From NCBI RefSeq assembly GCF_900230215.1, contig NZ_LT907982.1:496001-560000 (forward strand): a stretch of DNA of 64,000 nucleotides, given 5' to 3'. Below the pieces are notes generated by a model. The model ran no database searches. It saw only the letters and a program-made list of their open reading frames with translations, and was not told the DNA's origin. How positions within the stretch are numbered: the first letter of the stretch is position 1; each line of letters opens with the position of its first letter. This DNA is from Jatrophihabitans sp. GAS493. Its GTDB lineage: Bacteria > Actinomycetota > Actinomycetes > Mycobacteriales > Jatrophihabitantaceae. Below, in pieces: positions 11,858-49,864 of the stretch. A program made the position numbers and the translations under genes.

Positions 11858-11871
11858 CTGACGATTGTCGC

Positions 11872-12957: not shown

Positions 12958-13023
12958 GCCGCAAGTCTGGCTCGAAGTGACTGTGATCAGCCTGAGCGAT
13001 TCCCACCCATCCTGAGAAATTCC

Positions 13024-13047
13024 TGGCAGAGTGAGTGGCAGAGTGAG
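13024..13047 (+). promoter_or_regulatory. Tandem 12-bp direct repeat upstream of the response regulator
   Basis: TGGCAGAGTGAG twice in direct succession (13024-13035, 13036-13047), about 40 bp before the regulator's start and between it and the LolA/ABC operon. OmpR-family regulators bind direct repeats of about 11-12 bp spacing, so this may be the autoregulatory site. Function is inference. Confidence 0.4.
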
Positions 13048-13085
13048 TGCCTGACCCGCTCGACTCTGCTGACGGAGGACTCATC

Positions 13086-30549: not shown

Positions 30550-31947
30550 TTAGTTCCGTCGGTTCCACGCCCGGCGCTCGGCCAGCACGGCGATCGCCCA
30601 GTGATGGTCCATTCGCTGGCCGTCCCATCTCGTACGCGCCGCGTCGAGCGCGACGTTTGGGTGTTCATCGTCGATGGGAGACGCCGGGCTGACGGGAGGA
30701 ACAGTCGTTCCTGCCCTGAGCGAGGTGCCGTCGGCGCGAAGGAATTCGAAGTACCCGTCGACGCCGTCGATCGGAACGATGACAAATTCACCTTCGTGAT
30801 GCGCCAGGTGGTGGGCCTGGCAGAGCAGCGTCAAGTTGCCCAGATCGGTACACCCGCCGTCGAGCCAGTGCCGTACGTGATGGGCCTGCAGGTTACGACG
30901 GCTCTCGCAGCCGGGAAAGGTGCAGCAACCGTCACGAAGCAGCAGCGCCTGGAACTGTCGGTCGGATACCACTCGATGAGATCGGCCGAGATCGAGCACG
31001 TTGCCGGCGCCGTCCCGAATTGCGGTGCGAATCCTGCCGTCACAGAGCAGTCGTGTGACCACTTGCTTCGATAGCCCCGGCCCACCCTCGATACGCCCGT
31101 ACGCGCGCCCGTCTGTACTCGCAGGCGCCTCGGCTGAGCTGGTCGTCGGTGTATCGGCCTCGACTGCCGGCACCGCGGCGACGTCGAGGTGAATGACGAC
31201 GGCGGCCCGCTCGTGCCCACGCAGTTCACGCACCGGCGGGGTGGAGTCGTTCATCGCGATCGTCGCCAACTCAGCCATTCGCAGCAAGGCCTGCGGCGCG
31301 GAAATGCCTTCCGCCGCGCTGATGCGTTCGATGGCGCTCTGCACGAGTGCGCCGTCCTCCGGATTCATACGACTGCTCAGTTGCCACTGGGATTCGTCCG
31401 TCCAACGGTAGGTCAGCGACGCTTCGCGGCGTCGGCCGGCGTCGATTCGGTCAACGGTTCGCAGCCCTCGGACCGCTGCCTCCAGATGACCGACGGTGCC
31501 GTGTTCGGCGACCGTGATCAGCTCGGCGACGAGTGCATCCTCACCGGGCGACGCAACGCGCGAGATCGCACGAACATGAGAGTAGGAGAGGCGACCGGCG
31601 CTCATTTCAGTGGCGAGCGGAGGAAACATGGCCAGTGCGCGGGCGACCCGTACGTGATCGACCGACGTGCGCCTGGAGAGCCCGCAGGAATGCGATAGCC
31701 ATTTGGCAGTCGACCAGAGGCCGAAATGAGCAGCGCCTTCGCGGGCGTCGAAATCGGCGACGAGCAGCAGCCAGCGACAGGTGGCGGCGGCCAATCGCCC
31801 GGCCATGCCGACGATCTCCGCACCGAGGACGTCGAGCGACGCCGGCACCGGTAGGCAGGTCAGCGTCGCGCGGGGCGCGGCCGGATCCGAGTTGGTTGCC
31901 GTGTTTGCGCGCGGAGTTGAATTATTGAGAAGGGGTGTCGCGTCCAT
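30550..31947 (-). CDS. DUF222/HNH endonuclease domain protein (13E12 type)
   Basis: ATG 31947 (MDATPLLNNSTPRAN) gives 465 residues; an upstream in-frame start at 31989 is less likely. The long helical DUF222 region (about 50-330) contains AAATCRWLLLVADFDAREG and RTSVDHVRVARAL. The C-terminal HNH nuclease has CCTFPGCESR (zinc-type cysteines), LQAHHVRHWLDGG, LGNLTLLCQAHHLAHH. These are the multicopy 13E12/REP-associated proteins of actinobacteria; their role is not settled, but nuclease residues are intact here. The gene is bracketed by two identical 23-bp palindromic repeats. Confidence 0.9.
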   Translation of the reverse strand: MDATPLLNNSTPRANTATNSDPAAPRATLTCLPVPASLDVLGAEIVGMAGRLAAATCRWLLLVADFDAREGAAHFGLWSTAKWLSHSCGLSRRTSVDHVRVARALAMFPPLATEMSAGRLSYSHVRAISRVASPGEDALVAELITVAEHGTVGHLEAAVRGLRTVDRIDAGRRREASLTYRWTDESQWQLSSRMNPEDGALVQSAIERISAAEGISAPQALLRMAELATIAMNDSTPPVRELRGHERAAVVIHLDVAAVPAVEADTPTTSSAEAPASTDGRAYGRIEGGPGLSKQVVTRLLCDGRIRTAIRDGAGNVLDLGRSHRVVSDRQFQALLLRDGCCTFPGCESRRNLQAHHVRHWLDGGCTDLGNLTLLCQAHHLAHHEGEFVIVPIDGVDGYFEFLRADGTSLRAGTTVPPVSPASPIDDEHPNVALDAARTRWDGQRMDHHWAIAVLAERRAWNRRN

Positions 31948-32027
31948 GCGGCGACCGTAGCGAGAGGGTCTGACAGTTTCCGGCCGCAAGGGACGGAACG
32001 CCCATCTCGGCCCTGCAACCAGCGCAA

Positions 32028-32050
32028 TCGGTTCAGCTGAACCGATCAGC
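32028..32050. repeat. 23-bp palindromic repeat, copy 2
   Basis: Same 23 bases as 30498-30520, same orientation, 1530 bp away. It overlaps the last codon and stop of the S9 peptidase gene and precedes the HNH gene. Could act as a transcription terminator or as the border of a mobile unit. Confidence 0.9.
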
Positions 32051-33932
32051 GACCAGCCGCGGGTGGCGGCACGGCCAACCGCAGGGTCAGGAAGCGGGTC
32101 ATCGTCTCGATGAGCTGCAGCCGCGAGGCGGGCAGCCGGTACTCATGCCCCTCGCCGGCCAGCTCCAGGTATTCGACATCCCGCCCCAGCGCCCGCAGCG
32201 ACGCGACGATCTGAGTCGCCTCATTGAGCGGCACGTTGGTGTCGAACTCGCCGTGCACCACCAGCACCGGCGCCATGATCCGCCGCACATGATTGATCGG
32301 CGAGATCTGGCGCAGCAGCGCCGCGTCCGTCTTGGGATCGCCGTACTTCGTGACCGCGGCCGCCGCGATCCACGGCTCGGTGTCACGGTAGAAGGTCATC
32401 AGATCCGACATCCCGCAGATGTCCACCCCAGCCGCGAAGAGCCGGGAGAATCTAGCCAGCGCGGCCAGCGTCAGGTACCCACCGTAGGAGCGGCCGGTGA
32501 CCGCGATCCGGCGGCCGTCGGCCACCCCGATCCCGGCCAGGTAGAGCGCGCTCGTCTCCACGTCGGAGATCGCATCGTGTCGCCCGTGCCGATCATCGGC
32601 GTGCACGAAGGCCCGTCCATAGCCGGACGACCCTCGAATGTTAGGGGCGAAGACGCTGATACCGGCCGCGGCCAGCGTCTGGTGCTGCGCGCTGAAGGTC
32701 GGCCGCTCCTGCGACTCCGGCCCGCCGTGCAGGCTCAGCATCGCCGGGCCGGCCTGATGGTGACCGACCGCCCGATAGAGCCAGCCGCTCAACGGCAGCC
32801 CATCATGAGCCAGGAAATGCTGCAGAGTTGGCGTCACCAGCTCAGCCTCGGGTAGGGGCGGCCGCTCGCTGACCAGGCTCCAGGTCTGCGACCCGAGGTC
32901 GAAGCGCCAGATCTCCTGCGGCCGGGTCGGAGACTGCACGCAGAAGACGACGCAGGATCCGTCCCGCGAGAGCACGCAGCCGTCGACCACCGCACCGGGA
33001 AGGTCAGGCACCGGAGTCCGCCGGCCGGACTCAACGTCCAGCAGTTCGACCTCACTACGTCCCTGGACGTTCCAGACCAGCACCATCTCCCGACCGGCGT
33101 CGTCGGCGTCGACGAAGTCGAGCTCGCCGTCCTCGCGGGCGGCCAGCAGCCCGACCTCACCGCGCTCGCCGTCGGCGTGAATCGGTATCGCCAGCAGCGC
33201 CTTCCGCGGCTGACCGGCGTCGGAGACCAGATAGGCGACCATCGCCGTCTCGTCACCGTACGGAGCCGGGCGGAGCATCCCGGCGCTCGTCGAGCCGGTC
33301 TGCGGGTAGGGCAGCAATGGATGGTCGGAATCGAGCTGCCGATCCAGCACGACACAGAACTGCGCGCCCCGCTTTCCGTCGCGCAGCAGGGCGAAACGCT
33401 CCCCGGCCGAGAGATCCAGCACGTCGACCAGCCCACCGACGGCCAGCGGCTCATGCTCGCCGGTGGTCGGATCGACGAGATCAGCCCGGCTGGAATCCCC
33501 AGTGTTTCGCGGGGCATTCGTGACGACGACCTGACGGCCATGACGCGTCCAGGGGCCGAGGGTGGCGTGATGCTCATCCGACCCCGCGACCCGCTGGGCG
33601 CCGGTTCCGTCCGGGCGAACAATCCATACCTCGGTGCGCACGCCACCGTGGGCGGCCACCGCGCAGGCCAACCATTCACCGTCGGAGGACCAGTGCACCG
33701 AGACGATCGGGTCCTCGCTCACCGGCACCCGTACGGCGCACGCAAGATCCGGCGCCGGCCCCGATGCCATCGGCTGCAGCCACACCTCGGGGCGGCCGCT
33801 GCGATCGCTGATGAAGGCGACGTGGTCGGAGTCGGGTGAGACGGTCGGCCCCCAACTTCCCCAGGCGTCGACCAACTGCTGCATCAGCCGGGCGAGGTCT
33901 GATTGCAGGTCAAGAGTGGGACGAAGAACCAT
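32046..33932 (-). CDS. S9 family peptidase (acylaminoacyl/prolyl oligopeptidase type)
   Basis: 628 residues. The N-terminal half is a seven-bladed propeller with repeats such as SPDSDHVAFISDRSGRPEVW and WSSDGEWLACAV. The catalytic domain (about 390-620) has the nucleophile in VTGRSYGGYLTLAAL, Asp in HGEFDTNVPL and His in AGEGHEYRLP. It should cleave small peptides in the cytoplasm, and has no signal peptide. Third gene of the operon with the amidotransferase and ligase, 30 nt downstream; a peptidase in this position parallels the M42 peptidase of NAGGN operons. AGGG directly abuts the ATG, an unusual ribosome site. Confidence 0.92.
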   Translation of the reverse strand: MVLRPTLDLQSDLARLMQQLVDAWGSWGPTVSPDSDHVAFISDRSGRPEVWLQPMASGPAPDLACAVRVPVSEDPIVSVHWSSDGEWLACAVAAHGGVRTEVWIVRPDGTGAQRVAGSDEHHATLGPWTRHGRQVVVTNAPRNTGDSSRADLVDPTTGEHEPLAVGGLVDVLDLSAGERFALLRDGKRGAQFCVVLDRQLDSDHPLLPYPQTGSTSAGMLRPAPYGDETAMVAYLVSDAGQPRKALLAIPIHADGERGEVGLLAAREDGELDFVDADDAGREMVLVWNVQGRSEVELLDVESGRRTPVPDLPGAVVDGCVLSRDGSCVVFCVQSPTRPQEIWRFDLGSQTWSLVSERPPLPEAELVTPTLQHFLAHDGLPLSGWLYRAVGHHQAGPAMLSLHGGPESQERPTFSAQHQTLAAAGISVFAPNIRGSSGYGRAFVHADDRHGRHDAISDVETSALYLAGIGVADGRRIAVTGRSYGGYLTLAALARFSRLFAAGVDICGMSDLMTFYRDTEPWIAAAAVTKYGDPKTDAALLRQISPINHVRRIMAPVLVVHGEFDTNVPLNEATQIVASLRALGRDVEYLELAGEGHEYRLPASRLQLIETMTRFLTLRLAVPPPAAGR

Positions 33933-33940
33933 CCCTAGTA

Positions 33941-33978
33941 GATATCCATCAGTAGATATCCATCAGTTGATATCCATC
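33941..33978 (-). repeat. 14-bp tandem repeat over the amidotransferase stop
   Basis: GATATCCATCAGT(A/T) at 33941-33954 and 33955-33968, then a partial unit GATATCCATC at 33969-33978, which is part of the coding sequence for the last residues (MDIN). The 3' end of the gene has been duplicated into the spacer before the peptidase start. Confidence 0.9.
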
Positions 33979-35747
33979 TTCTGCAGCCACATCTCCAGTA
34001 ACGCCAGCTGCCACAGCGCGTTCGAGCCGAGCGTCGTGCGGGTCCGGTTAGGGTCGGCCAGCATCCGTTCGACCGGCTCCCGCTGGAAGAGCCCGCGGGC
34101 CTGCGCCGCCGGATCGGTGAGCGCCTCACGCACTCGATCCAGGTAGGGACCCTCCAACTGACGGATCGCCGGCACCGGGAAACTCCCCTTCGTCCGGTCG
34201 ATCACCTCATCGGGCACCACGCCTCGGCTGGCCTGCTTCAGCACGCCCTTGCCACCGAGTTCCAGCTTCAATTCCGGGGGGATTCGCCCGGCCAGCTCGA
34301 CGAATTCATGGTCCAGGAACGGCACCCGAGCCTCCAGGCCCCAGGACATCGTCATGTTGTCGACGCGCTTCACCGGATCGTCGACCAGCATGATCGTTGT
34401 GTCGTTGCGCAGCGCCGCGTCGACGGTCGTCTCGGCTCCGGGCCGGGCGAATTGAGCGGTGATGTACTCCGTCGGGGCATCGGTGTCGATCATCCACTCC
34501 GGCGAGAGCAGCTGCCCGAGCGCGGCGAAGCGGCGGTCGAAGAAGACGTTCGCGTAGGCCTCTACGGCCTCGCCCCGCGGGACTCCGAGTAGCGGTGGGT
34601 ACCAGTCGTAGCCGCCGAGCACCTCATCGGCACCCTGCCCGGACTGCACCACCTTCACCTCCTGGGCCACATCCTGGCTGAGCAGGTAGAAGGCGACGCA
34701 GTCGTGGCTGACCATCGGTTCGCTCATGGCGGCGATGGCCGAGTCGATGCCCGGCAGTAGCCGCGAGGAGTCGATCGGGATGCGGTGATGCTTCGTCCCG
34801 AAGTGCCGGGCCACCAGGTCGGAGTACTCGAACTCGTCGCCGGTCTCGCCGCCGGCCGCGTCGAAGCCGATGCTGAAGGTCATCAGGTCGGTCTGCCCGG
34901 CCTCGGCCAGCAGCGCCACCACCAGGCTCGAGTCGATTCCGCCCGACAGCAGCACCCCGACCGGCACGTCAGCCACCATGCGCCGCTCGACTGCGGTACG
35001 CAGGCTCCCCAGCAGGGCCTCCTGCCAATCCCGCGAGGTGGCCCCGGCCATCGAATCGTCCCGGGCGAAGGTGGCGTCCCAGTAGACCCAGTCACTGAAC
35101 GAGCCGTCCGGCGCGACCGTGCGCACCGTCGCCGGCGGGAGTTTCCGCACCCCGTTGAGGATCGTGTGCGGCGCCGGCACCACCGAGTGGAAGCTCATGT
35201 AGTACGCCAGTGCGGTCCGGTCGATTGACGTGTCGGTGCCACCGGCGGCCAGCAGCGCGGGCAGCGTCGAGGCGAACCGCAGCCGCGACGGAGTCTGGTC
35301 CAGGTAGAGCGGCTTGATGCCGAGCCGGTCACGGGCCATCACCACGACGCCGGTGCGCCGCTCCAGGATGACGAAGGCGAACATCCCCAGGAACCGCTCG
35401 ACGCAGGACGGACCCCAGTGGTCGTAGGCCTTGGTGATCACTTCGGTGTCGGAGGTGGAGAAGAAACGGTAGCCGGCCGCCTCCAGCTCACCGCGCAGTT
35501 GCTTGTAGTTGTAGATGCAGCCGTTGAAGACGACGGTCAGCCCGAGGTCGGAGTCGACCAGGGGCTGGGCGCCGGCGTCGGAGAGGTCGATGATCGACAA
35601 CCGCCGGTGGCCGAAGGCGACCCGGCCGTTGGCCCAGATGCCGTTGCCGTCCGGGCCCCGGGGCGCCATCTTCACGCAGATCCGCTCGACGGCGGCGGCG
35701 TCCGCGCTCTGCCCGTCGAAACGGATCTCGCCCGCTAGTCCGCACAT
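33963..35747 (-). CDS. N-acetylglutaminylglutamine-type amidotransferase (asparagine synthase family)
   Basis: 594 residues. Cys2 (MCGLAGEIRFDG) is the glutaminase nucleophile; RGPDGNG and VFNGCIYNYKQLRGELE complete the N-terminal domain. The synthetase half has the PP-loop LLSGGIDSSLVVAL and VQSGQGADEVLGGYDWYP. Segments such as NGCIYNY and MSFHSVVPAPHTILNGV match, from memory, the amidotransferase (AsnO) of N-acetylglutaminylglutamine amide (NAGGN) biosynthesis rather than AsnB. It would amidate the C-terminus of a glutamine-containing peptide. GGAG is five bases upstream of the ATG. Neighbouring genes are not the usual NAGGN partners. Confidence 0.85.
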   Translation of the reverse strand: MCGLAGEIRFDGQSADAAAVERICVKMAPRGPDGNGIWANGRVAFGHRRLSIIDLSDAGAQPLVDSDLGLTVVFNGCIYNYKQLRGELEAAGYRFFSTSDTEVITKAYDHWGPSCVERFLGMFAFVILERRTGVVVMARDRLGIKPLYLDQTPSRLRFASTLPALLAAGGTDTSIDRTALAYYMSFHSVVPAPHTILNGVRKLPPATVRTVAPDGSFSDWVYWDATFARDDSMAGATSRDWQEALLGSLRTAVERRMVADVPVGVLLSGGIDSSLVVALLAEAGQTDLMTFSIGFDAAGGETGDEFEYSDLVARHFGTKHHRIPIDSSRLLPGIDSAIAAMSEPMVSHDCVAFYLLSQDVAQEVKVVQSGQGADEVLGGYDWYPPLLGVPRGEAVEAYANVFFDRRFAALGQLLSPEWMIDTDAPTEYITAQFARPGAETTVDAALRNDTTIMLVDDPVKRVDNMTMSWGLEARVPFLDHEFVELAGRIPPELKLELGGKGVLKQASRGVVPDEVIDRTKGSFPVPAIRQLEGPYLDRVREALTDPAAQARGLFQREPVERMLADPNRTRTTLGSNALWQLALLEMWLQKMDIN

Positions 35748-35789
35748 GTCTGCTCCGCCTTGTTCGTTGCCCAGTCTGCAGTTACCCGT

Positions 35790-38327
35790 TCACCGATGAT
35801 CGTCTTCTCCAATGATCCATGTGTCCTTCGCGCCACCACCGCGCGATGAGTTCACGACCATGCTGCCCGCCGGGGCCACCCGGGTTAACGCGAGATCGGC
35901 CACATGCGCATCCTCCGGTTCGGTTCCGGTCAGGTAGACGAAGGCCCGCAGGTCGACGTGGCGGGGCTCCAGGTTGGCACCGTTGAAGGTCGGGTGTGAT
36001 GAGAGGGCCACCACCTCCTGCGCCACCCAGCGCGGCGGGTCGGCCGCCACCTCGGCCCGGCGGGCGGAGACGGCCGCCGCTGAGGCCAGCGGTCCGACCA
36101 TCACGCCGCCGCCGCCGTAACCGTCAACCGGCTTGGTGACCAGCTCGCCGACCCGCTCCAGCACCGACCGGCACTCCTCCGGATCGCTGCAGCGGTAGGT
36201 CGGTACCGAGTCGAGGAGGGGCTTCTCGCCCAGGTAGTAGGCGATCAGATCGCTGACGTAGCAGTACATCGCCTTGTCGTCGGCGACGCCGTTCCCGGGC
36301 GCATTGGCCAGCCGTACCGTGTCGGCCACCGCGGCCTCCAGCAGGTCGCTGCCGATGGCCCGGCCGTCCGAGTCGACGAGGTCGAGCAGTTCGACGTCCA
36401 GCCGCAGGTAGAGCACCGCGATCTCGGCTCCGGTCGGGACGTAGACGACCCGCCCGTCGACGACCTCCAGCTGCTCCGGGGTGGCCAGCAGTAGTTCGGC
36501 CCGCTCGGCCAGCAGCCGATGTTCGAAGAAAGCCGAGTTCCCGGCACCGTCGGAGAGCAGGGCCAGCGTCCCGGTGGCACCGGGGGCGGCACAGGCCTGC
36601 AGGCAACTGCGGAGCAGAGCGGGCAGGCTGGCCGGTGCGAGCAGGTGCTCCGGACGGGGTAGCCCCGGCACGACGACGTCCATCAGCTCACGGATCGCCA
36701 ACGCAAAGCCGGCCCCGGACGGGACCCGTACGTTGTCCTCCAGCACCCGCCAGGCCCCGAGCTCGTTGCGCACCAGATCGAAACCCTGCACCGGTGCCCG
36801 GAGCACCCCTCGGGGCAGCCGCCGGGCCTCCTCGCGCCAGCCGATCGCGCCGCGCACCACGTCGCTGGGCAGCACCGCCTCGTCCAGCACCTTCTCATCG
36901 CTGTAGATGTCCTGCAGGAACGCCTCGATGGCCCGGGCCCGCTGAGCCAGGCCGGCCCGCAGCGCCGTCCATTCGTGAGCCGGGATCACCCGGGGCAGCA
37001 GGTCGACCGGGAAGGGACGATGGCCGCCGTCGACGCCGAAGGTCATCCCCTGCGCGACTGACCACTCGTCCCGCTGGGCCGCCTGCTCGGCCGCCTCGGA
37101 GAGCGTCGTCTGCTCCAGCTCCTTCAGCACCTCGCGGTAGGGCGGGCGCGGCTCGCCCGAGGCCATGAAGACCTCGTCACCGGCGCGGGCCGGGTAGCGC
37201 CGGATCCCCTTGCGGGCCCGGGCCGAGTCCTCGATGGTGCCGTGCGTCTCGCCGACCACCTGGTCGACCACGTCCGACATCCGGCCGTGCTCGGCAAAGG
37301 CCGCGCGCTGCCGGTCGGCGGAGTTACCGCGAATCAGCGTCGCCTCGGCGAGCTCCACGACGGTGCTCCAATCCCCGAGCTCCTCGAGGTGTGGGCGGAG
37401 CCGGTTCACCAGCGCCCGCACCACCTGCGCCGCCGGGACCGGCTGCGGACGTGGGCTGTTGTCGAGCAGATCGCCAGCCAGCCCGCTGCGGGCGGCGCGC
37501 CACATCGCGGCCCGGTGCAGCGGTGCCGGAAGCGGGACGATCGGCTCGCCGGCGATCGCCGCCGCTTGGGCCTCGGCGACCAGACCGCGGAAGAGCCCGG
37601 CGATGAGCACTGCGTCGTCGACGATCGGGCAGCCGTCGCAGACCCGCAGCTCGATCGTCGGCACGTGCGAGGACGGCCGGACGTCGAAGTAGGCCATCTT
37701 GGCGTCGGCGATGACGCCGGAGCTGATCAGGTCGGAGACCAGATCGTCGTACTGGCTGGCCGAGGTGAGCTCACCGAAGGTCCCGGCGGTGGGCCAGCGC
37801 TGCCAGATGATGGTGCGGATGCTCGCGTAGCCGGTGTCGGTACCGTGCCAGAACGGCGAGCTGGCCGAGAGCGAGAGCAGGGTGGGGAGGTCGCGGCTGA
37901 CGCGCTGGGCCACGCTCACGGCGACGTCCCGGTCGGCCAGCCCGACGTGCACCTGGGTGCCGCAGATGAGCTGCTCGTCGACCAGTAGCCGGTACTCCTC
38001 CTGCATCCGTCCGAAACGCCCGGTGGCGGTGAGCTCGAAGTCGTCGGCCGAGGAGAGCGGCGCTGTGCCGACCGCGGCGACCCCTAGACCCTCCGACCCG
38101 ACGACGCTGATCAGCTCCCGGCGCAACCGCACGATCTCGGAGTGCAGCTCGTCCAGGGTGGTGCAGACCTCGGTGTTCGTCTCGATGGTGCTGCGCTGCA
38201 GTTCAGCCGAGAAGCTCTCCGCGGGCAGGCGCGCCAGCAGTTGCGGCGCGCGGGGCACGAGGAGTGAGGTTTCCAGGTCGACGACGTGAAGCTCTTCCTC
38301 GACACCCAGGGTCAGAGATGAAGTCAC
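35790..38327 (-). CDS. Carboxylate-amine ligase (GCS2) fused to circularly permuted ATP-grasp
   Basis: GTG 38327 begins TSSLTLGVEEELHVVDLETS, the usual start of GCS2/YbdK-type glutamate-cysteine-ligase-like domains, giving 845 residues; an upstream GTG at 38390 adds an atypical tail. Domain 1 (about 1-375): LGVEEELHVVD, GTQVHVGLADRDVA, PTIELRVCDGCPIVDDAV. Domain 2 (about 390-845): a type 2 circularly permuted ATP-grasp, with VDLLPRVIPAHEW, FDLVRNELGAWRVLEDNVRV, and DGYGGGGVMVGPLAS. Both halves form amide bonds using ATP. First gene of the operon; 42 nt before the amidotransferase. A peptide-like product amidated by the next enzyme is a reasonable inference. Confidence 0.9.
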   Translation of the reverse strand: MTSSLTLGVEEELHVVDLETSLLVPRAPQLLARLPAESFSAELQRSTIETNTEVCTTLDELHSEIVRLRRELISVVGSEGLGVAAVGTAPLSSADDFELTATGRFGRMQEEYRLLVDEQLICGTQVHVGLADRDVAVSVAQRVSRDLPTLLSLSASSPFWHGTDTGYASIRTIIWQRWPTAGTFGELTSASQYDDLVSDLISSGVIADAKMAYFDVRPSSHVPTIELRVCDGCPIVDDAVLIAGLFRGLVAEAQAAAIAGEPIVPLPAPLHRAAMWRAARSGLAGDLLDNSPRPQPVPAAQVVRALVNRLRPHLEELGDWSTVVELAEATLIRGNSADRQRAAFAEHGRMSDVVDQVVGETHGTIEDSARARKGIRRYPARAGDEVFMASGEPRPPYREVLKELEQTTLSEAAEQAAQRDEWSVAQGMTFGVDGGHRPFPVDLLPRVIPAHEWTALRAGLAQRARAIEAFLQDIYSDEKVLDEAVLPSDVVRGAIGWREEARRLPRGVLRAPVQGFDLVRNELGAWRVLEDNVRVPSGAGFALAIRELMDVVVPGLPRPEHLLAPASLPALLRSCLQACAAPGATGTLALLSDGAGNSAFFEHRLLAERAELLLATPEQLEVVDGRVVYVPTGAEIAVLYLRLDVELLDLVDSDGRAIGSDLLEAAVADTVRLANAPGNGVADDKAMYCYVSDLIAYYLGEKPLLDSVPTYRCSDPEECRSVLERVGELVTKPVDGYGGGGVMVGPLASAAAVSARRAEVAADPPRWVAQEVVALSSHPTFNGANLEPRHVDLRAFVYLTGTEPEDAHVADLALTRVAPAGSMVVNSSRGGGAKDTWIIGEDDHR

Positions 38328-38501
38328 ACCTTCAGTATGTCGAGGTTTGTTGCACCCAGGTGTCTGCGGCGGGTAAACCCGAGGCTGCACCGGCCGTACT
38401 TAGATAGGTAACCTGTCAATCACTGTGACTTGCGACCTAATTCATCAAGACTTCGGGTCAGGTTTCTGTTAAACATTGACACCGACGTTGGAGGTCGTGG
38501 C

Positions 38502-39977
38502 GTGACGCGCTTGAGCAGTGCACAGCTGGATCGCGCCGTCGGCGTGCTGCTGGGCAGCGCTGCCGGCGACGCCCTCGGCGCACCCTATGAGTTCCATCCG
38601 CCCCGCGCGGCGGCCGAGTCGATCGCCATGATCGGCGGTGGCACCTTCGGCTGGGAGCGCGGCGAGTGGACCGACGACACCTCGATGGGACTGGTGCTGG
38701 CCCAGGTCGCCGCCTCCGGGGCCGATCTGGCCGGCGACGACGCCCAGGACCGGATCGCCAACGCCTGGTACCGGTGGGCTCAGAAGGCGCCGGACGTGGG
38801 CGCGCAGACCCGCAGCGTGCTCAACTCGGCCTATCACGCAGCCCGCGAGGCGCTCACTCCACTGCGGGCCTCGCACCTGCGGATTGCCGCCGACGAGCAC
38901 CACAAGCAGTCCGGGCGCTCCGGCGGAAATGGCTCGCTGATGCGCACCGCCGTCGTTGCACTGGCCTACCTGCACGACGAGGACAAGCTCTTCGAGGTGG
39001 CCCAGTCACTGAGCCACCTGACCCATCACGACGACGAGGCGGCGGAGGCTTGCGCGCTCTGGTGCCTGGCCGTCCGTCACGCCGTGCTCTGCGGCTCGCT
39101 GAACATCCGCCGTGGCCTCTCCCGCCTCTCCACCACCCGCCGCGAGGTCTGGCTGGCCCGGATCGAGGCCGCCGAGATCACCCTTCCGGCCGACTTCGAA
39201 GAGAACGGCTGGGTCGTCGAGGCCTTCCAGGCCGCCTGGTCGGCGATCTCGCACACTGGTGTCCCGATGGAGAACCCGTCCGAGCGCACCTTCCGCGTTC
39301 AGCACCTGGCCCGGGCGATCGAGCTCGCGGCGCGTAGCGGCAATGACACCGACACGATTGCCGCGATCGCCGGTGGCCTGGTCGGAGCGGCCTATGGCGG
39401 CTCGGCCGTCCCCGCCGAGTGGCGGCGGCTGCTGCACGGCTGGCCGGGGCTACGCGAGCGGGACCTGACCCGGCTGGCCGTCCTCATCACCCGCGACGGC
39501 GACGACTCGCCGGAGCACTGGCCGAACCGGCCGCACCTGCAGTACCCGGGGCCGGCGGCGGCCGAGGCGATCAGCGCCCACCCCTACGACGACGATCTGC
39601 TCATCGGCGGCTTCGACGCGCTGCACCATCTCCCCTTCGGCGTGGAGGCGATCGTCTCGCTCTGCCGGGTCGGTCGCGAGGACATCCCCGAGCTGATCGC
39701 ACCCGAGGACCACGTCGAGATGTGGATCGTGGAGAGCGACGCCCGGGTAGAGAACCCGAACCTGGCCTTCGTCCTCGACGACGCGGCCCGGGTGATCACC
39801 CAACTTCGCAGCGAGGGCAAGCGCGTCTACCTGCACGGAATCGGCGCGGGCGGGGTTGCCTGCGAGGTCGCGGCCCGCTACGGCGCCGACCGGCGGGACG
39901 TGACCCCGGCCGAGGCGCTGACGGCCGTGCTGGAGTCGGTCAGCCACTCAGCCGCTGGGTCAATCGCGCTGCGGTGA
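38502..39977 (+). CDS. ADP-ribosylglycohydrolase fused to an inactive phosphatase-like domain
   Basis: GTG 38502 with GGAGG seven bases upstream gives 491 residues. The first about 330 residues are a dinuclear-Mg ADP-ribosylglycohydrolase: GSAAGDALGAPYEF, GEWTDDTSMGLVLA, SGGNGSLMRTAVVAL and SGNDTDTIAAIAGGLVGAAYG. The last about 150 residues look like the dual-specificity-phosphatase domain often fused here, but the HCxxxxxR loop reads YLHGIGAGGVACEV: Cys and Arg are both missing. So de-ADP-ribosylation should work and phosphatase activity should not. Divergent from the ligase operon; its last 38 nt overlap the convergent IclR gene. Confidence 0.88.
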   Translation: MTRLSSAQLDRAVGVLLGSAAGDALGAPYEFHPPRAAAESIAMIGGGTFGWERGEWTDDTSMGLVLAQVAASGADLAGDDAQDRIANAWYRWAQKAPDVGAQTRSVLNSAYHAAREALTPLRASHLRIAADEHHKQSGRSGGNGSLMRTAVVALAYLHDEDKLFEVAQSLSHLTHHDDEAAEACALWCLAVRHAVLCGSLNIRRGLSRLSTTRREVWLARIEAAEITLPADFEENGWVVEAFQAAWSAISHTGVPMENPSERTFRVQHLARAIELAARSGNDTDTIAAIAGGLVGAAYGGSAVPAEWRRLLHGWPGLRERDLTRLAVLITRDGDDSPEHWPNRPHLQYPGPAAAEAISAHPYDDDLLIGGFDALHHLPFGVEAIVSLCRVGREDIPELIAPEDHVEMWIVESDARVENPNLAFVLDDAARVITQLRSEGKRVYLHGIGAGGVACEVAARYGADRRDVTPAEALTAVLESVSHSAAGSIALR

Positions 39978-40707
39978 GCTGAGTCTGACGGATCAGCGCC
40001 GCCCGTCGCTGCTGGTTCACCTCCACCTGGGGATAGGTCACCGCGACCGCGGCCAGCGGATGACGATTGTGGTCCAGCACCGCTGCGGCCACGGAGGCGA
40101 AACCCTCGGTTATCTCCCCTGATTCGCTGGCGACTCCGTCTCGGCGCACGCCGACCAGCAGCTGTTTGAGGGCCGAGATGGTCTGCGGCTGGGTAGCCGC
40201 CGGCGTCTCCCGCCAGCTCACGAAGGCGGCCGCGTCCGGGAAGAGCGCCCGCACCTGGGTGGCCGGCAGCGCGGCCAGCACCGCGCGCCCGCTGGCGGTC
40301 AGGTGAGCCGGCAGGCGCACCCCGACGTCGGTGATGAGGGGTGCTCGCCCGGGTGCCCGCTCCTCCAGTACGTAGACGACATCGCGTCCGTGCAGCACGG
40401 CCAGATGGGCGCTGTGACCGGTGCGGTCGACGAGTCGAGCCAGCGGCACCCGGGCCAACCGCTGCAGCGGGGCCTGCCGGCTGTAGCCACTGGCCAGTTC
40501 GTAGGCGCGAACCCCGAGGGCGTAGCGCCGCTCCTCGCTCAGGTGCAGCACGAAGCCGGATTCGCAGAGGGTGTTCAGCAGGTGGTAGGTACTCGATCGC
40601 GGCAGTTTCAGCTCCCGGGCGAGCACCGCGGCCGGCACCGGGCCGGCCTGCTCGGAGAGCAGTTGCAGTATCTGCAGCACATGCGTCGCCGCCGGAACCT
40701 GCTTCAC
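39940..40707 (-). CDS. IclR-family transcriptional regulator
   Basis: 255 residues. N-terminal winged helix [18 protein letters not shown] followed by [20 protein letters not shown], then the effector domain with [21 protein letters not shown] and [19 protein letters not shown]. Divergent from hutU, it is the likely regulator of the hut operon, with a dyad GTGTCT-N8-AGACAC in the shared promoter region. Its C-terminal codons overlap the ADP-ribosylglycohydrolase gene by 38 nt. Confidence 0.92.
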
Positions 40708-40712
40708 CGCTC

Positions 40713-40738
40713 GGAGCCTAGTCGTTGGAGCCTAGTCG
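40713..40738. repeat. 12-bp direct repeat before the IclR gene
   Basis: GGAGCCTAGTCG at 40713-40724 and 40727-40738, just upstream of the iclR start on the minus strand. It could be part of a regulatory site or a slippage product. Confidence 0.6.
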
Positions 40739-40742
40739 CGCA

Positions 40743-40762
40743 GTGTCTCGGATACCAGACAC
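40743..40762. promoter_or_regulatory. Dyad in the iclR-hutU spacer, candidate operator
   Basis: GTGTCT-CGGATACC-AGACAC: perfect 6-bp arms with an 8-nt spacer, in the 129-bp region between the divergent iclR and hutU genes. Size and place fit an IclR-family operator. Confidence 0.5.
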
Positions 40763-40836
40763 CGGGCGCGCCGCGGCCCTGGCGTTTCCGGCCGGGAGCG
40801 AGTGTGATGGATAGACCGGACCGAAGGAGAAGCAGC

Positions 40837-42492
<1,656 letters not shown>

Positions 42493-42497
42493 CGCGC

Positions 42498-43694
42498 TTG
42501 CCCGTCTTCGACAATCTCTGGAGTGAACTCGCACCGATCGGCCGTCACGCCGCCACCGGGGGGTACCGGCGCTTCGCCTGGACGAGCGAAGATGCCGTAT
42601 TACGCGAGTGGTTCGCCTCGCACGCGGCGGCCCGCGGCTTGGACCTGACCCTGGATCGGGCCGGGAACCAGTGGGCCTGGTGGGGCGATCCGGATGCCGC
42701 GGTGGCCGCCGGTGATCCCGGCGTGGTGATCGGATCGCACCTGGACTCGGTCCCCGACGGTGGTGCCTTCGACGGACCCCTGGGCGTGGTCTCCGCCTTC
42801 GCCGCCGTCGACGCGCTGCGCGCGGATGGCTTCACCCCCGCCCGCCCGGTCGGGGTGGTGAACTTCGGCGACGAGGAGGGGGCGCGCTTCGGGGTGGCCT
42901 GCGCCGGTTCCCGGATCATCTGTGGCGCATTGGCCGGCGAGCGGGCCCGCGGCCTGCGTGACGGCGCGGGCGTCACGATGGCCGAGGCCATGCAGCATTC
43001 CGGTTTCGCACCGTCATCGATCGGCCCGGACGCGGAGACCCTCGCTCGGATAGGGACATTCGTCGAACTGCACGTCGAGCAGGGACGCGCCCTGGTCGAC
43101 CTCGACGCACCGGTCGGGCTGGCCTCCTCCATCTGGCCGCATGGGCGGTGGCGGCTGGACTTGCTGGGTGAGGCGAACCATGCCGGCACCACCCGCCTCG
43201 TCGATCGCCGGGACCCGATGCTGAACCTGGCCGCGGTGATCCAAGCGGCCCGCAGTGCCGCGGAGCGCTACGGGGCGGTCGCGACCGTCGGCAAGGTTCG
43301 GGTCGAGCCGAACGGGGTGAACGCCATCGCCTCTGCGGTGACGGCCTGGCTGGATGCCCGCGGCCCGCACGAAGACGACGTCCGGCGCATCGCCGAAGTG
43401 GTGGCGGCGGCCGGCGGGGTGGCGGCGATCGAGGAGTCTTTTACCGGCGATACGGGCTTCGACGCCCCGCTGCGTGACCGGTTGAGCGGCGCGCTGGGCT
43501 CGCAACTGCCGGTGCTGGCGACCGGGGCCGGTCACGACGCCGGCATCCTGGCTAGCGCCGGGATCCCCACCGCGATGCTCTTCGTCCGCAACCCGACCGG
43601 GGTCTCGCACTCACCGGCCGAGTACGCCGAACTCGACGACTGCCACGCCGGGGTCGCGGCGCTGACGGGCGCGGTCCGGGAGCTGGCCTCATGA
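42498..43694 (+). CDS. M20-family amidohydrolase (allantoate amidohydrolase/carbamoylase-like)
   Basis: 398 residues from a TTG start; GGAG lies about 11 bases upstream in the end of hutU. M20 metallo-hydrolase motifs: GSHLDSVPDGGAFDGPLGV, FGDEEGARFGVACAGSR, ELHVEQGRAL and GAGHDAGILA. Similar genes sit between hutU and hutF in Streptomyces and are annotated allantoate amidohydrolase. In the HutF route the product N-formylglutamate must be deformylated, so this enzyme may serve as that deformylase (inference). Overlaps hutF by 4 nt. Confidence 0.88.
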   Translation: MPVFDNLWSELAPIGRHAATGGYRRFAWTSEDAVLREWFASHAAARGLDLTLDRAGNQWAWWGDPDAAVAAGDPGVVIGSHLDSVPDGGAFDGPLGVVSAFAAVDALRADGFTPARPVGVVNFGDEEGARFGVACAGSRIICGALAGERARGLRDGAGVTMAEAMQHSGFAPSSIGPDAETLARIGTFVELHVEQGRALVDLDAPVGLASSIWPHGRWRLDLLGEANHAGTTRLVDRRDPMLNLAAVIQAARSAAERYGAVATVGKVRVEPNGVNAIASAVTAWLDARGPHEDDVRRIAEVVAAAGGVAAIEESFTGDTGFDAPLRDRLSGALGSQLPVLATGAGHDAGILASAGIPTAMLFVRNPTGVSHSPAEYAELDDCHAGVAALTGAVRELAS

Positions 43695-45001
43695 CGAACT
43701 GGTGGTGCGAATACGCCTATCTACCAACGGGTCTGGCCCGCGACGTCCGCCTCGAGGTCCGCGACGGTCGGTATGCGGCGATCACCCCGAACTCCTCACC
43801 CGACGCCGCCTCCATCTTCGCCGGACTGGCACTGCCCGGCTTCGCCAACGCCCACAGCCATGCCTTCCACCGCGCGCTACGCGGACGCACGCACGACGGT
43901 GGCGGCACGTTCTGGACCTGGCGGGAACGGATGTACCAGGTGGCCCAGCGTCTGAACCCGGACACATACCTGGCGCTGGCCCGGGCCACCTACGCCGAGA
44001 TGGCGCTGGCCGGCATCACCGGTGTCGGCGAGTTTCACTACCTGCATCACGGCCCGGGTGGCTCCCGCTACGACGACCCCAACGCGATGGGTCACGCGCT
44101 CATCCAGGCCGCCCGCGACGCCGGCATTCGCCTGACGCTGTTGGACACCTGCTACCTCGCCGGCGGCCTCGACGGCGGCGGCCACACTGGGTTGAACGAG
44201 GTGCAGCAGCGCTTCTCCGACGGGACGGTGGAGAGGTGGGAGGCCCGAGTCAGCCAGCTGGAGGCGACCGAGCAGCTCCGAATCGGCGTGGGGATCCACT
44301 CCGTCCGGGCCGTCCCGCAGCAGGACCTGGCGGCCATCGCCCGGGCGGCGGGCGGCCGGCCGTTACATTTTCACCTCTCCGAACAGCCGGCCGAGAATGA
44401 GGCGACCCTGGCGTTCTACGGTCAGACCCCGACCGAGCTCCTGGACGGGGAGTCGGCGCTCGGTCCGAACAGCACCGCCGTGCACGCGACCCACCTCACC
44501 GCAGCGGATATCAAGCGGCTCGGCGCCACGCACACCACCGCCTGCTTCTGCCCCACCACCGAGCGGGACCTGGCCGACGGCATCGGGCCGGCCCGCGCAC
44601 TGGCCGACGCCGGCTCACCGCTGAGCCTGGGCAGCGATCAGCACGCGGTGATCGACCTGTTGGAGGAGGCCCGGACGCTGGAACTCCATGAGCGGCTGGC
44701 CAGCAATGAACGTGGACGCTTCACCCTGCCCCAGCTGCAGGCCGCCCTCACCGCACACGCCGGCATCGGTTTCGACGACGCCGGGGCGCTAGCCGTCGGG
44801 CAGCGGGCCGACCTGGTCACCGTCGATCTCAACTCGACCCGCACCGCCGGCGTCGACCCGGCTCAGCTGATCTTCGCCGCCACCGCGGCCGACATCCGCG
44901 ACGTCTGCGTGGACGGCCGGCGCATCGTCACCGGCGGCCAGCACATCCTCGGCGACGTCGGGGCCCTACTGCGCCGCGCCATCGATCCCCTTTACGAATA
45001 G
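43691..45001 (+). CDS. hutF: Formimidoylglutamate deiminase
   Basis: 436 residues, amidohydrolase superfamily. GLALPGFANAHSHAFHRALRG gives the HxH metal motif; HLSEQPAENEATL has the third His; AVHATHLTAADI and SLGSDQHAVIDLLEEAR (metal-binding Asp) follow. It converts N-formimidoylglutamate to N-formylglutamate plus ammonia, marking the five-step histidine route. ATGA overlap with the M20 gene; hutH starts 11 nt after its stop. Confidence 0.94.
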   Translation: MTNWWCEYAYLPTGLARDVRLEVRDGRYAAITPNSSPDAASIFAGLALPGFANAHSHAFHRALRGRTHDGGGTFWTWRERMYQVAQRLNPDTYLALARATYAEMALAGITGVGEFHYLHHGPGGSRYDDPNAMGHALIQAARDAGIRLTLLDTCYLAGGLDGGGHTGLNEVQQRFSDGTVERWEARVSQLEATEQLRIGVGIHSVRAVPQQDLAAIARAAGGRPLHFHLSEQPAENEATLAFYGQTPTELLDGESALGPNSTAVHATHLTAADIKRLGATHTTACFCPTTERDLADGIGPARALADAGSPLSLGSDQHAVIDLLEEARTLELHERLASNERGRFTLPQLQAALTAHAGIGFDDAGALAVGQRADLVTVDLNSTRTAGVDPAQLIFAATAADIRDVCVDGRRIVTGGQHILGDVGALLRRAIDPLYE

Positions 45002-45012
45002 GACATCCAGCC

Positions 45013-46566
45013 ATGACCCCCGGTAAGACAGCCAGCGTCGTCCTGACCCAGCAGGCCCTCACCCTCGACGAGGTGGTGGACGTGGCCCGGCACGGCGCGC
45101 CGGTGCAGATCGAGCACGGTGCCCGCGTCGGGATCCGGGCCGCCCGGCACGCGGTCGAGACTCTCGGCGCCGGTGACACGCCGATCTACGGTGTCTCCAC
45201 CGGTTTCGGGGCGCTCGCCTCGACCCGGATCTCAGCTGATCAGCGGGAGGACCTGCAGAAAGCGCTCGTCCGCTCGCATGCCGCCGGCTCTGGCCCCGAG
45301 GTCGAGCGGGAGGTCGTTCGCGCCCTCATGCTGCTGCGGCTGCACACCTTCGTCACCGGCCACACCGGCGTGACCGAGACCACCGTCGACGCCTACGCCG
45401 CCCTCCTCAACGCCGGAATCACTCCGGTGGTGCGCGAGTACGGCTCGCTGGGCTGCTCCGGTGACCTCGCCCCGCTGGCCACCTGCGCGCTGGCCGCCAC
45501 CGGCGAGGGCGAGGTGCGCGACGCGACGGGCGCGCTGATGCCGGCCGCCCAGGCGCTGGCCGCCGCCGGGATCACCCCGGTGACGCTGGTGGCCAAGGAG
45601 GGTCTGGCCCTGATCAACGGTACCGACGGGATGCTCGGCATGCTCTGCCTGGCCCTTATCGACCTGGCCCGGCTGGCCAAGATCGCCGACATCTCGGCCG
45701 CCATGAGTGTCGAGGCGCTGCTCGGCACGGATCGGGTCTTCGCGGCCGACATCCAAGCGCTGCGACCACACCCCGGGCAGGCCGATTCGGCGGCCAACCT
45801 CCGCGCCCTGCTCGCGGGTTCGCAGATCATGCAGAGCCACCGCGGCGAGGACTGCAGCGTGGTGCAGGATGCCTACTCGCTGCGCTGCGCCCCCCAGGTG
45901 GCCGGCGCCTTCCGCGACACCGCGAGCTACGCCCGGCAGGTGGCCGAGCGGGAACTGGCCAGCGCGATCGACAACCCGGCGGTCCTCTCCGATCAGCGCA
46001 TCGAGAGCAACGGCAACTTCCACGGCGCGCCGGTCGGATACGTCCTCGACTTCCTGGCCATCGCGGTGGCCGACCTCGCCTCCATCTCCGAACGACGCAC
46101 CGACCGGATGCTCGACCCGGCGCGCTCCCACGGCCTCCCCGCGTTCCTGGCCGGCAACCCCGGCGTCGACTCCGGGCTGATGATCGCGCAGTACACCCAG
46201 GCTGCCCTGGTCAGCGAGCTAAAGCGTTTAGCTGCTCCGGCGAGCGTCGACTCGATCCCCTCCTCGGCGATGCAGGAGGACCACGTCTCGATGGGCTGGT
46301 CGGCCGCCCGCAAACTGCGCAAGGGCATCGACGCGCTGCAGCGCGTGCTGGCCATCGAGGTCCTCACCTCGACCCGGGCCCTGGAACTGCGGCAGCCGCT
46401 GCTGCCCTCACCCGCTTCGACCGCGGTGCTGAGCGCGCTGCGCGAGACCGTCGCCGGCATCGGCCCGGACCGCTGGCTCACCCCCGAGATCGAGGCCGCG
46501 GTGGCCGCCGTGGAGTCCGGCCAGATCCTCGACGCCGCACAGGGAGCCGTCGGGCCACTGCACTAG
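45013..46566 (+). CDS. hutH: Histidine ammonia-lyase
   Basis: 517 residues. Deaminates L-histidine to urocanate, the first step. The MIO-forming tripeptide lies in REYGSLGCSGDLAPLATCAL: here it is Cys-Ser-Gly instead of Ala-Ser-Gly, a variant known from several actinobacterial HutH proteins (from memory). Other motifs: YGVSTGFGALA, EGLALINGTDGMLG, VQDAYSLRCAPQV and QEDHVSMGW. Unusually it closes the operon where hutI is expected. A short dyad CTAGCT-AAGCC-AGCTAG overlaps the stop codon. Confidence 0.96.
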   Translation: MTPGKTASVVLTQQALTLDEVVDVARHGAPVQIEHGARVGIRAARHAVETLGAGDTPIYGVSTGFGALASTRISADQREDLQKALVRSHAAGSGPEVEREVVRALMLLRLHTFVTGHTGVTETTVDAYAALLNAGITPVVREYGSLGCSGDLAPLATCALAATGEGEVRDATGALMPAAQALAAAGITPVTLVAKEGLALINGTDGMLGMLCLALIDLARLAKIADISAAMSVEALLGTDRVFAADIQALRPHPGQADSAANLRALLAGSQIMQSHRGEDCSVVQDAYSLRCAPQVAGAFRDTASYARQVAERELASAIDNPAVLSDQRIESNGNFHGAPVGYVLDFLAIAVADLASISERRTDRMLDPARSHGLPAFLAGNPGVDSGLMIAQYTQAALVSELKRLAAPASVDSIPSSAMQEDHVSMGWSAARKLRKGIDALQRVLAIEVLTSTRALELRQPLLPSPASTAVLSALRETVAGIGPDRWLTPEIEAAVAAVESGQILDAAQGAVGPLH

Positions 46567-47887: not shown

Positions 47888-49864
47888 ATGACGACGACAT
47901 CCCCCTATGGCAGCTGGCACTCTCCGATCTCCGCCGCCGACCTGGCCGCCGGTGAACATCCGGTCGACGGCAGCGCCTTCGCGGGCGGGGCGGGCGGCGC
48001 CGACGTCTGGTGGTCCGAACTGCGCAGCGACGAGGGCGGTCGCTACGCGGTGCGCCGCAGCGGCCCCGACGGCCAGCCGATCGACGTCCTGCCGCCACCC
48101 TGGAACGCCCGCACCCGGGTTCACGAATACGGCGGCGCAGCCTGGGCCGTTACGGCCGACGGCGTGCTCGTCTTCGCCGAGTTCAGCGATCAGCGCCTCT
48201 ACCGCCTCGATCCGGGCAGCAACCAACCGCGTCCGCTGACCCCGTCCTCGGAGCAGGCGGCACTGCGCTACGCCGAAGTGCAGTTCGACCCGGCCGGTCG
48301 GGAGGTGCGCTGCATTCGCGAGACCCACCGCGATGGACAGGTGCGCCGCGACCTCGTCGCCGTGCCCCTCGACGGCAGCGCCGCCACCGATCCGGACCAG
48401 ATCCGCTCCATCGTCGCCGGCTCGCATTTTCTGGCCGCCGCCCGCTTCTCACCAGATGACAGCCAGCTGGCCTGGCTGGCCTGGGACCACCCGCAGATGC
48501 CGTGGGACGGCTGCGAACTCCGCGTCGGGCGAATCGACGGCGACGGCCGCTGCACCGAGTGGACGACGATGCTGGGGTCGCGCACTGAGGCGGTGCTGCA
48601 GCCGGAGTGGATCGACGAGCAGCGCCTCTACGTGATCAGCGATCAGACCGGTTGGTGGAATCTCTACCGCCTCACCCAGCCGGCGGCCGGCGCCGGGGAG
48701 GCCCCGCGACTCGAGGCGCTCTGCGAGATGGCGGCCGACTTCGGCGCCCCACTCTGGCAGTTCGGTGCCCGCTGGTACCAGGCGCTGCCGGACGGCCGTC
48801 TCCTCACCGTCCGCACCTTCGGCCTGGACACACTGGGCATTCTGGACCCGCAGACGGGCGAGCTGACCGATCTCGACACCGGCGATCTCACCACCCTGCG
48901 GTTCGGACAGTTGAAGGGTGACGAGGTGCTGCTGCGCGGCGGTGGAGCCCGCACTCCGCACGGCCTGCGTCGGTACAACCTCAGCACCCGGCAGTTGACG
49001 GATGTGCGGCTCAGCGTTGACGGGCTGCCGCCCGCCGAATACCTTCCGCCCTCCTCTGCGATGACCTTTCACGCAGCCGACGGCCGTGAGGTGCACGCCT
49101 TCGTCTACCCACCGAGCAACCCTGACTTCGCCGCGCCCGAGGGTGAGCTGCCGCCCTTCGTCGCACTCGTGCACGGTGGTCCGACGGCTCATGTGGCCGG
49201 CATGTTGAATCTGGGCGCCGCCTACTTCACCAGTCGCGGAATCGGCGTCGTCGACGTCAACTACGGCGGCTCCAGTGGCTACGGGCGGGCCTACCGCGAG
49301 CGCCTGCGCGGTCAGTGGGGCATCGTCGACGTCCAGGACGTGGTTGCCGCCGCGCAGGGGCTGGCCGACGCGGGTCTGGCCGATGGCCGTCGGCTGGCCA
49401 TTCAGGGCGGCTCGGCCGGCGGGTGGACGGTGCTCTCAGCCCTCACCCAGACCGACGCCTTCGCCTGTGGGGCCTCCTACTTCGGCGTCGCCGAGCTACT
49501 GCAGTTCGCCGAGGAGACCCATGATTTCGAGTCCCGTTACCTGGACGGGCTCATCGGCCCGCTGCCCGAGGCTCGGGCGCTCTATGAGAGCCGGGCGCCG
49601 CTGAACAACGTGGACGGCCTCTCCTGCCCGGTGCTGCTCCTGCAGGGATTGGACGATCCGGTCGTGCCGCCCTCGCAGGCCGAGCGGTTCCGCGATGCGT
49701 TGGTGGCCAAGGGCCTGCCGCACGCGTACCTGGCCTACGAGGGCGAGTCGCACGGGTTCCGGAAGAAGGAGACGATCGTTCACTCCCACGAGGCGGAGCT
49801 CTCCTTCTACGGGCAGGTGATGGGCTTCGTCCCGGCGGATGTGCCGGTGCTACCCCTCAGCTGA
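47888..49864 (+). CDS. S9 family peptidase (dipeptidyl aminopeptidase/acylaminoacyl-peptidase)
   Basis: 658 residues, a second prolyl-oligopeptidase-like enzyme unrelated in context to the one at 32046. Propeller with FAEFSDQRLYRLDPGS and RFSPDDSQLAWLAWDHPQMPWD. Catalytic domain: ALVHGGPTAHVAGML, VDVNYGGSSGYGRAYRERL, nucleophile in AIQGGSAGGWTVLSAL, Asp in LQGLDDPVVP and His in EGESHGFRKKE. No signal peptide. Starts 72 nt after glbN. A strong hairpin follows its stop. Confidence 0.93.
   Translation: MTTTSPYGSWHSPISAADLAAGEHPVDGSAFAGGAGGADVWWSELRSDEGGRYAVRRSGPDGQPIDVLPPPWNARTRVHEYGGAAWAVTADGVLVFAEFSDQRLYRLDPGSNQPRPLTPSSEQAALRYAEVQFDPAGREVRCIRETHRDGQVRRDLVAVPLDGSAATDPDQIRSIVAGSHFLAAARFSPDDSQLAWLAWDHPQMPWDGCELRVGRIDGDGRCTEWTTMLGSRTEAVLQPEWIDEQRLYVISDQTGWWNLYRLTQPAAGAGEAPRLEALCEMAADFGAPLWQFGARWYQALPDGRLLTVRTFGLDTLGILDPQTGELTDLDTGDLTTLRFGQLKGDEVLLRGGGARTPHGLRRYNLSTRQLTDVRLSVDGLPPAEYLPPSSAMTFHAADGREVHAFVYPPSNPDFAAPEGELPPFVALVHGGPTAHVAGMLNLGAAYFTSRGIGVVDVNYGGSSGYGRAYRERLRGQWGIVDVQDVVAAAQGLADAGLADGRRLAIQGGSAGGWTVLSALTQTDAFACGASYFGVAELLQFAEETHDFESRYLDGLIGPLPEARALYESRAPLNNVDGLSCPVLLLQGLDDPVVPPSQAERFRDALVAKGLPHAYLAYEGESHGFRKKETIVHSHEAELSFYGQVMGFVPADVPVLPLS

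Follow-up and report, generated by a model that had tools for sequence, protein, structure and literature searches.

Which molecule is made by an operon that databases label as N-acetyl-Gln-Gln-amide (NAGGN) synthesis, though the backbone enzyme Ngg is missing from it? The question is raised by three genes in a 64,000-nucleotide stretch of the Jatrophihabitans sp. GAS493 genome (NZ_LT907982.1, positions 496,001 to 560,000; hereafter, the window). NAGGN is built by Ngg, which acetylates a glutamine and couples another to it, and by AsnO, which converts the end to an amide (PMC8070244). The NAGGN operons of P. aeruginosa (PA3459-PA3461) and S. meliloti (asnO-ngg) resemble the operon in the window in their curated AsnO model, two-domain ATP-dependent ligase, peptidase and compact layout (PMC8070244). 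However, these operons combine AsnO with Ngg and a glutamyl aminopeptidase, whereas here Ngg is replaced by a GCS2 domain fused to a circularly permuted (CP) ATP-grasp, and the M42 peptidase by an S9 hydrolase (Table 1).

Table 1. Operon features and neighboring genes, in window coordinates
Feature	Position	Strand	Description
GCS2 - CP-ATP-grasp fusion gene	35790..38327	-	845 aa; GTG start; two-domain peptide ligase
GCS2 (YbdK-type gamma-carboxylate-amine ligase) domain	37479..38309	-	aa 7-283; PF04107, 180 bits
CP_ATPgrasp_2 domain	35874..36995	-	aa 445-818; PF14403, 355 bits
AsnO-type glutamine-dependent amidotransferase gene	33963..35747	-	594 aa; Cys2 glutaminase domain aa 1-167, synthetase domain aa 247-589
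AsnO codons 570-574	34026..34040	-	R570/G574 here; of all positions these two follow the partner most closely (Ngg-type: L570, mostly with R574)
S9 (acylaminoacyl-/dipeptidyl-peptidase-like) hydrolase gene	32046..33932	-	628 aa
DUF222-HNH endonuclease-type gene	30550..31989	-	directly downstream of the operon S9 gene
ADP-ribosylglycohydrolase-domain gene	38430..39977	+	divergent from the operon; synteny within the genus only
Histidine utilisation cluster	39940..46566		near the operon, not on its strand; IclR-type regulator, hutU (909 bits), allantoate amidohydrolase-like gene, hutF, hutH
Second S9/Dpp5-like hydrolase gene	47888..49864	+	distinct from the operon S9

The fusion, AsnO and S9 genes follow one another on the minus strand from 38327 to 32046 with intergenic gaps of 42 and 30 nt, and the ORF coordinates thus bear out the original prediction of three closely spaced, co-directional genes. 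The fusion start at 38327 is the same as that in the same-genus locus L092, and the alternative GTG at 38390 in the ORF list is not needed. Comparison with L092 gave dN/dS values of 0.074, 0.077 and 0.081 for the three genes, indicating that all three are under purifying selection. An identical gene order was found in more than 12 genera by neighborhood comparison. Spacing, shared strand and conservation together point to an operon. The ADP-ribosylglycohydrolase gene was considered as an additional pathway gene and rejected, since an upstream copy is shared within the genus only.

By profile search, the amidotransferase scored 946.9 bits against the AsnO equivalog model TIGR03104, well above the cut-off of 570.1, and 420.7 bits against TIGR01536, as expected of an AsnO-like rather than an AsnB enzyme. 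The other NAGGN components were absent from the genome: the best match to Ngg (TIGR03103, GNAT plus ATP-grasp) reached 20 bits against a cut-off of 569, with none at 1e-60, and the NAGGN M42 peptidase model TIGR03106 had zero matches. A hidden Ngg or M42 peptidase was therefore rejected genome-wide, and with it the possibility, raised alongside the original prediction, of an ngg with its own asnO elsewhere. Together with the domain matches, these absences uphold the proposed replacement of the NAGGN ligase by the fusion and of the peptidase by the S9 enzyme. The M42 peptidase is an optional part of the NAGGN pathway, with 17 mainly mycobacterial genomes carrying none (PMC8070244).

The partners of AsnO were compared in a phylum sample of 396 genomes, 46 of which had AsnO above the cut-off. 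Ngg was present in 32 of these 46 and adjoined AsnO in the loci read; a broken assembly (G344) carried its Ngg-AsnO pair on another contig. None of the remaining 14 genomes had Ngg, and in 13 of them GCS2, CP-ATP-grasp or both adjoined AsnO. These non-Ngg arrangements took several forms: the fusion with S9 (the window and f40); GCS2 alone with S9 (four f5 genomes, Streptomyces-like by inference); CP-ATP-grasp with a DUF1028 Ntn-hydrolase and, in most cases, a divergent GCS2 (f19), of which locus L073 lacked an adjacent GCS2; and a GCS2-AsnO pair (f43). An apparent GCS2-AsnO fusion in locus L047 was rejected, as the single open frame there differs from the GCS2 frame. The fourteenth genome (G298) had only AsnO and S9; the flanks of this locus (L052) match those of the fusion-bearing Williamsia locus L142, which points to a probable loss of the fusion gene. 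DUF1028 occupied the place of S9, where the contig reached, in AsnO sets with CP-ATP-grasp and usually a divergent GCS2 (loci L048, L075, L079 and L073), and these sets provide a context for this domain. Operon-type S9 genes were absent from Ngg-linked AsnO loci within the stretches read.

Sampling at the level of the order identified the fusion in 16 genomes, nearly always with AsnO and S9 following it. By kinship, the order of the window also includes genomes that are syntenic or identical with loci of Mycobacterium, Pseudonocardia and Micromonospora. A wider scan of 84,980 species genomes yielded 22 fusion loci and, as controls, 55 loci with stand-alone paralogous CP-ATP-grasp genes. AsnO was found at 22/22 fusion loci and S9 at 21/22, the one exception lying at a contig edge, while no stand-alone locus (0/55) carried AsnO. 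Fusion loci were found in Subtercola, Glaciihabitans, Microbacterium, Curtobacterium, Actinoplanes, Winogradskya, Micromonospora, Pseudonocardia, Actinomycetospora, Actinoallomurus, Sphaerisporangium, Williamsia, Mycobacterium and other genera, and the gene set is present in many soil and leaf actinobacteria. Conservation of the three genes together in related genomes was thus established; the original prediction was broadly right about the replaced partners and too narrow about distribution, the set being common in Actinomycetota.

Clustering of all neighboring ORFs identified only the operon's own families as common widely across genera; no GNAT, transporter or regulator, including any osmotic regulator, was widely common in these neighborhoods. 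Inserts at individual loci (a glutamine synthetase-like gene in L136 and others in L144) were not conserved and were rejected as pathway genes. The L136 insert, named by eye as type III glutamine synthetase-like, lies antisense between fusion and AsnO at 10653..13070 of a Pseudonocardia metagenome-assembled genome (MAG). Partial forms were also seen: fusion and S9 without AsnO (L116), fusion without AsnO nearby (L122) and AsnO split over two frames (L145). Another locus (L141), on a contig labeled Nevskia (Pseudomonadota), bears the operon with mycobacterial synteny and is probably a mis-binned MAG contig.

Both domains of the fusion could be placed in known families. The GCS2 domain retains residues E10, E12, H127, R217, E226 and R228, which lie in invariant columns and, by alignment to 1r8g and 1tt4, also occur in YbdK; it shares this active site with the YbdK family (TIGR02050, 1r8g) but differs in being fused to a CP-ATP-grasp and linked to AsnO. 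The second domain covers PF14403 positions 1-374 of 374 with its ATP-grasp motifs intact (K732, the glycine-rich loop, D792/R794 and N826), and aligns over the whole domain with 3n6x, a CP_ATPgrasp_2 protein annotated as a putative glutathionylspermidine synthase (472 bits, 34% identity). Linkage to AsnO distinguishes the fusion from its stand-alone CP_ATPgrasp_2 paralogues. A predicted model of the fusion (mean pLDDT 79) matched the folds of 3n6x and YbdK 1r8g, followed by eukaryotic-type glutathione synthetases and GshF (3ln7). Like GshF, the fusion joins an N-terminal glutamate gamma-ligase to a C-terminal ATP-grasp in a single chain; however, both of its domains belong to other families and an amidotransferase gene follows it, and the likeness to GshF is one of presumed working only. 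The genome contains three CP-ATP-grasp and three GCS2 genes, and the fusion is thus one of several paralogues.

The S9 protein belongs to the prolyl oligopeptidase family. Its catalytic domain (Peptidase_S9, PF00326, 150.8 bits, aa 411-616) contains a Ser482-Asp564-His596 triad that is conserved in 28 relatives, and the closest solved structure is the amino acyl peptidase 5l8s. No signal peptide was evident by eye, and the hydrolase is probably cytoplasmic.

The residues of AsnO were compared among 81 AsnO sequences with any partner (41 S9-type and 27 Ngg-type; 54 non-Ngg in total). Cys2, the PP-loop, Asp349, Gln371, Glu375, Tyr380, Arg461, Arg474 and Lys520 were invariant in all 81, bar one truncated start. 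The substrate site of the homologous PesC pairs Glu with Tyr and Asp with Arg, a similar Asp-Arg arrangement occurs in AsnO, and the AsnO substrate ends in a residue with an amide side chain (PMC13060819). Using our own mapping of these PesC and AsnO site residues onto the numbering of the present protein, D349, E375, Y380, R461 and R474 likely bind the terminal residue of the substrate. Since these residues are invariant across Ngg-linked and other AsnO proteins, the terminal residue would be glutamine or similar. By contrast, position 570 is Arg in 41/41 S9-type and Leu in 27/27 Ngg-type proteins, and position 574 is Gly in 54/54 non-Ngg forms and Arg, His or Asn in 25/27 Ngg-type proteins. 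These two positions may contact the variable part of the substrate, although close relatives would have such states in common through descent. The comparison suggests a substrate that, like NAGGN, ends in glutamine but differs in the rest of the molecule. C-terminal carboxylates are also amidated by asparagine synthetase-like enzymes in RiPP pathways (TsrC, ScdTA and PesC; PMC13060819), but those pathways act on ribosomal precursor peptides, none of which was seen at the operon.

Phylogenetic analysis placed the S9-linked AsnO forms, with fusion or with GCS2 only, apart from most Ngg-linked forms and from the DUF1028-linked and third Micromonospora forms; two Ngg-linked proteins lay beside the S9 clade in a first tree and on the opposite side in a second. 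In the GCS2 tree, the partners from f19, f43 and Micromonospora did not group with the fusion GCS2, with details unsure on account of long branches. Other Asn_synthase proteins were rejected as a root for the AsnO tree, as the outgroup branch was too long to order Ngg and GCS2 pairing. AsnO and GCS2 were apparently joined more than once, or are an old pair with greatly diverged parts. In either case, the link between them looks functional.

We infer the substrates, the order of steps, the product, the S9 role and any osmolyte use as follows. The GCS2 domain would use ATP to activate the gamma-carboxylate of glutamate and couple this group to the amine of another amino acid. The fused CP-ATP-grasp would then extend gamma-Glu-X at its carboxyl end, in a GshF-like bifunctional order, and AsnO would, as in the NAGGN pathway, use glutamine-derived ammonia to turn the terminal carboxylate into an amide. 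The S9 hydrolase would remove or recycle the amidated product. The gamma-linkage is presumed from the GCS2 family, and the biochemistry of GCS2 (YbdK) enzymes, like that of the CP-ATP-grasp family, is poorly defined. ATP-grasp is missing in the f5 genomes and Microbispora; the extension step is therefore not universal and product length may differ between lineages, with gamma-Glu-X-Gln-NH2 and, where ATP-grasp is missing, gamma-Glu-Gln-NH2 as candidate products.

We consider it an even call that the three genes form a self-contained route to a small gamma-glutamyl peptide with an amidated C terminus, and the probability that the product is an amidated small peptide of this gamma-glutamyl type is likewise about one half. 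A different C-terminally amidated peptide, as originally predicted, remains the best reading of an AsnO-like enzyme in a conserved set with replaced partners and neither Ngg nor TIGR03106; its glutamate/glutamine identity is a presumption. Two other parts of that prediction were unsupported. No separate N-capping enzyme (no GNAT) accompanies the set for a capping step, and the osmolyte role was proposed by analogy, with no conserved osmotic regulator nearby; we put osmolyte use at about one third.

Among the other readings, the one that survives best is that the fusion is a non-orthologous replacement of Ngg and the product is still NAGGN. Consistent with this, AsnO passes the NAGGN equivalog model, its probable substrate site shows no change, and Ngg and GCS2-type partners are mutually alternative in the phylum sample. 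However, the set includes neither a GNAT nor any other enzyme to donate an acetyl group, and AsnO positions 570 and 574 vary by partner. Micromonospora also bears on this reading. Among 101 genomes of this genus (the genus of genome G555, read as Micromonospora from synteny with M. noduli and M. parva loci), AsnO passed TIGR03104 in 101/101, Ngg was present in 74/101 and the fusion in 13/101. A TIGR03104 match by itself is thus not sufficient to identify a NAGGN pathway. Most of these genomes have a further AsnO copy as well; of nine such loci read, seven had a GCS2 of another subfamily, either convergent or nearby, whereas the stretch read contained none in the other two. Genome G657, Micromonospora by synteny, has all three (L215, L216 and L217): an Ngg-type locus, a fusion-S9-type locus and a third AsnO beside a convergent GCS2 of a different subfamily. 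Retention of all three would be odd for one product; separate products are suggested as the simpler reading, with redundant routes possible. On this balance, NAGGN as the product of the fusion operon is unlikely. NAGGN has been reported from genome mining as a core compatible solute of Micromonospora, and these genus-wide calls may mix the three kinds of locus (PMC12915310, PMC11537254).

Sets of GCS2 and CP-ATP-grasp genes occurring with alpha-E proteins have been proposed to modify macromolecules. The present system could by extension modify a stem peptide of the cell wall, a polyglutamate or a protein tag, with S9 or DUF1028 reversing the modification; GCS2 and CP-ATP-grasp paralogues do occur in other contexts, and a hydrolase is nearly always present. 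Against this, ORF clustering revealed no alpha-E, transglutaminase, proteasome-like or wall gene conserved at the loci, and the near relatives of this AsnO clade include enzymes whose substrate is a free dipeptide. We regard a macromolecular target as quite unlikely.

An amidated thiol is distinctly unlikely. By this account GCS2 would make gamma-Glu-Cys, the ATP-grasp would add Gly and AsnO would amidate the product to a compound like glutathione amide, which is known in purple sulfur bacteria. The NCBIfam glutamate-cysteine ligase model matches the GCS2 domain at 361 bits (cut-off 332), and the architecture resembles that of GshF and of glutathione synthetase. This name is, however, a propagated one for YbdK-type proteins, cysteine specificity would be presumed, and the host lineages are generally mycothiol users. 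Finally, an ordinary asparagine synthetase with unrelated neighbors is highly improbable: AsnO shares a fold family with AsnB, but it scores 947 versus 421 bits in favor of the AsnO model, has Gln371 within SGxGxDE at the motif position that is Glu in E. coli AsnB (SGEGxDE), and sits in a conserved neighborhood, and the AsnB reading was rejected.

Collectively, the amidated gamma-glutamyl peptide reading can be extended, with slightly less than even confidence, to a separate and widespread actinobacterial pathway for an undescribed amidated gamma-glutamyl di- or tripeptide, in which the AsnO scaffold was paired with GCS2-type ligases several times and which coexists with NAGGN synthesis in some Micromonospora. 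The literature searched contained no publication describing the gene set as a separate pathway, though an earlier mention may exist. The novelty originally claimed therefore holds in part: the separate nature of the pathway is apparently unrecorded, but the set is a common one among Actinomycetota, and the amidotransferase in it is already filed under the NAGGN model. If this reading is true, many genomic NAGGN calls in Actinomycetota would name the wrong molecule, bacterial metabolism would include a second class of small peptides with amidated C termini, and YbdK-type GCS2 and CP-ATP-grasp enzymes, ligases of almost unknown chemistry, would gain a testable substrate context.
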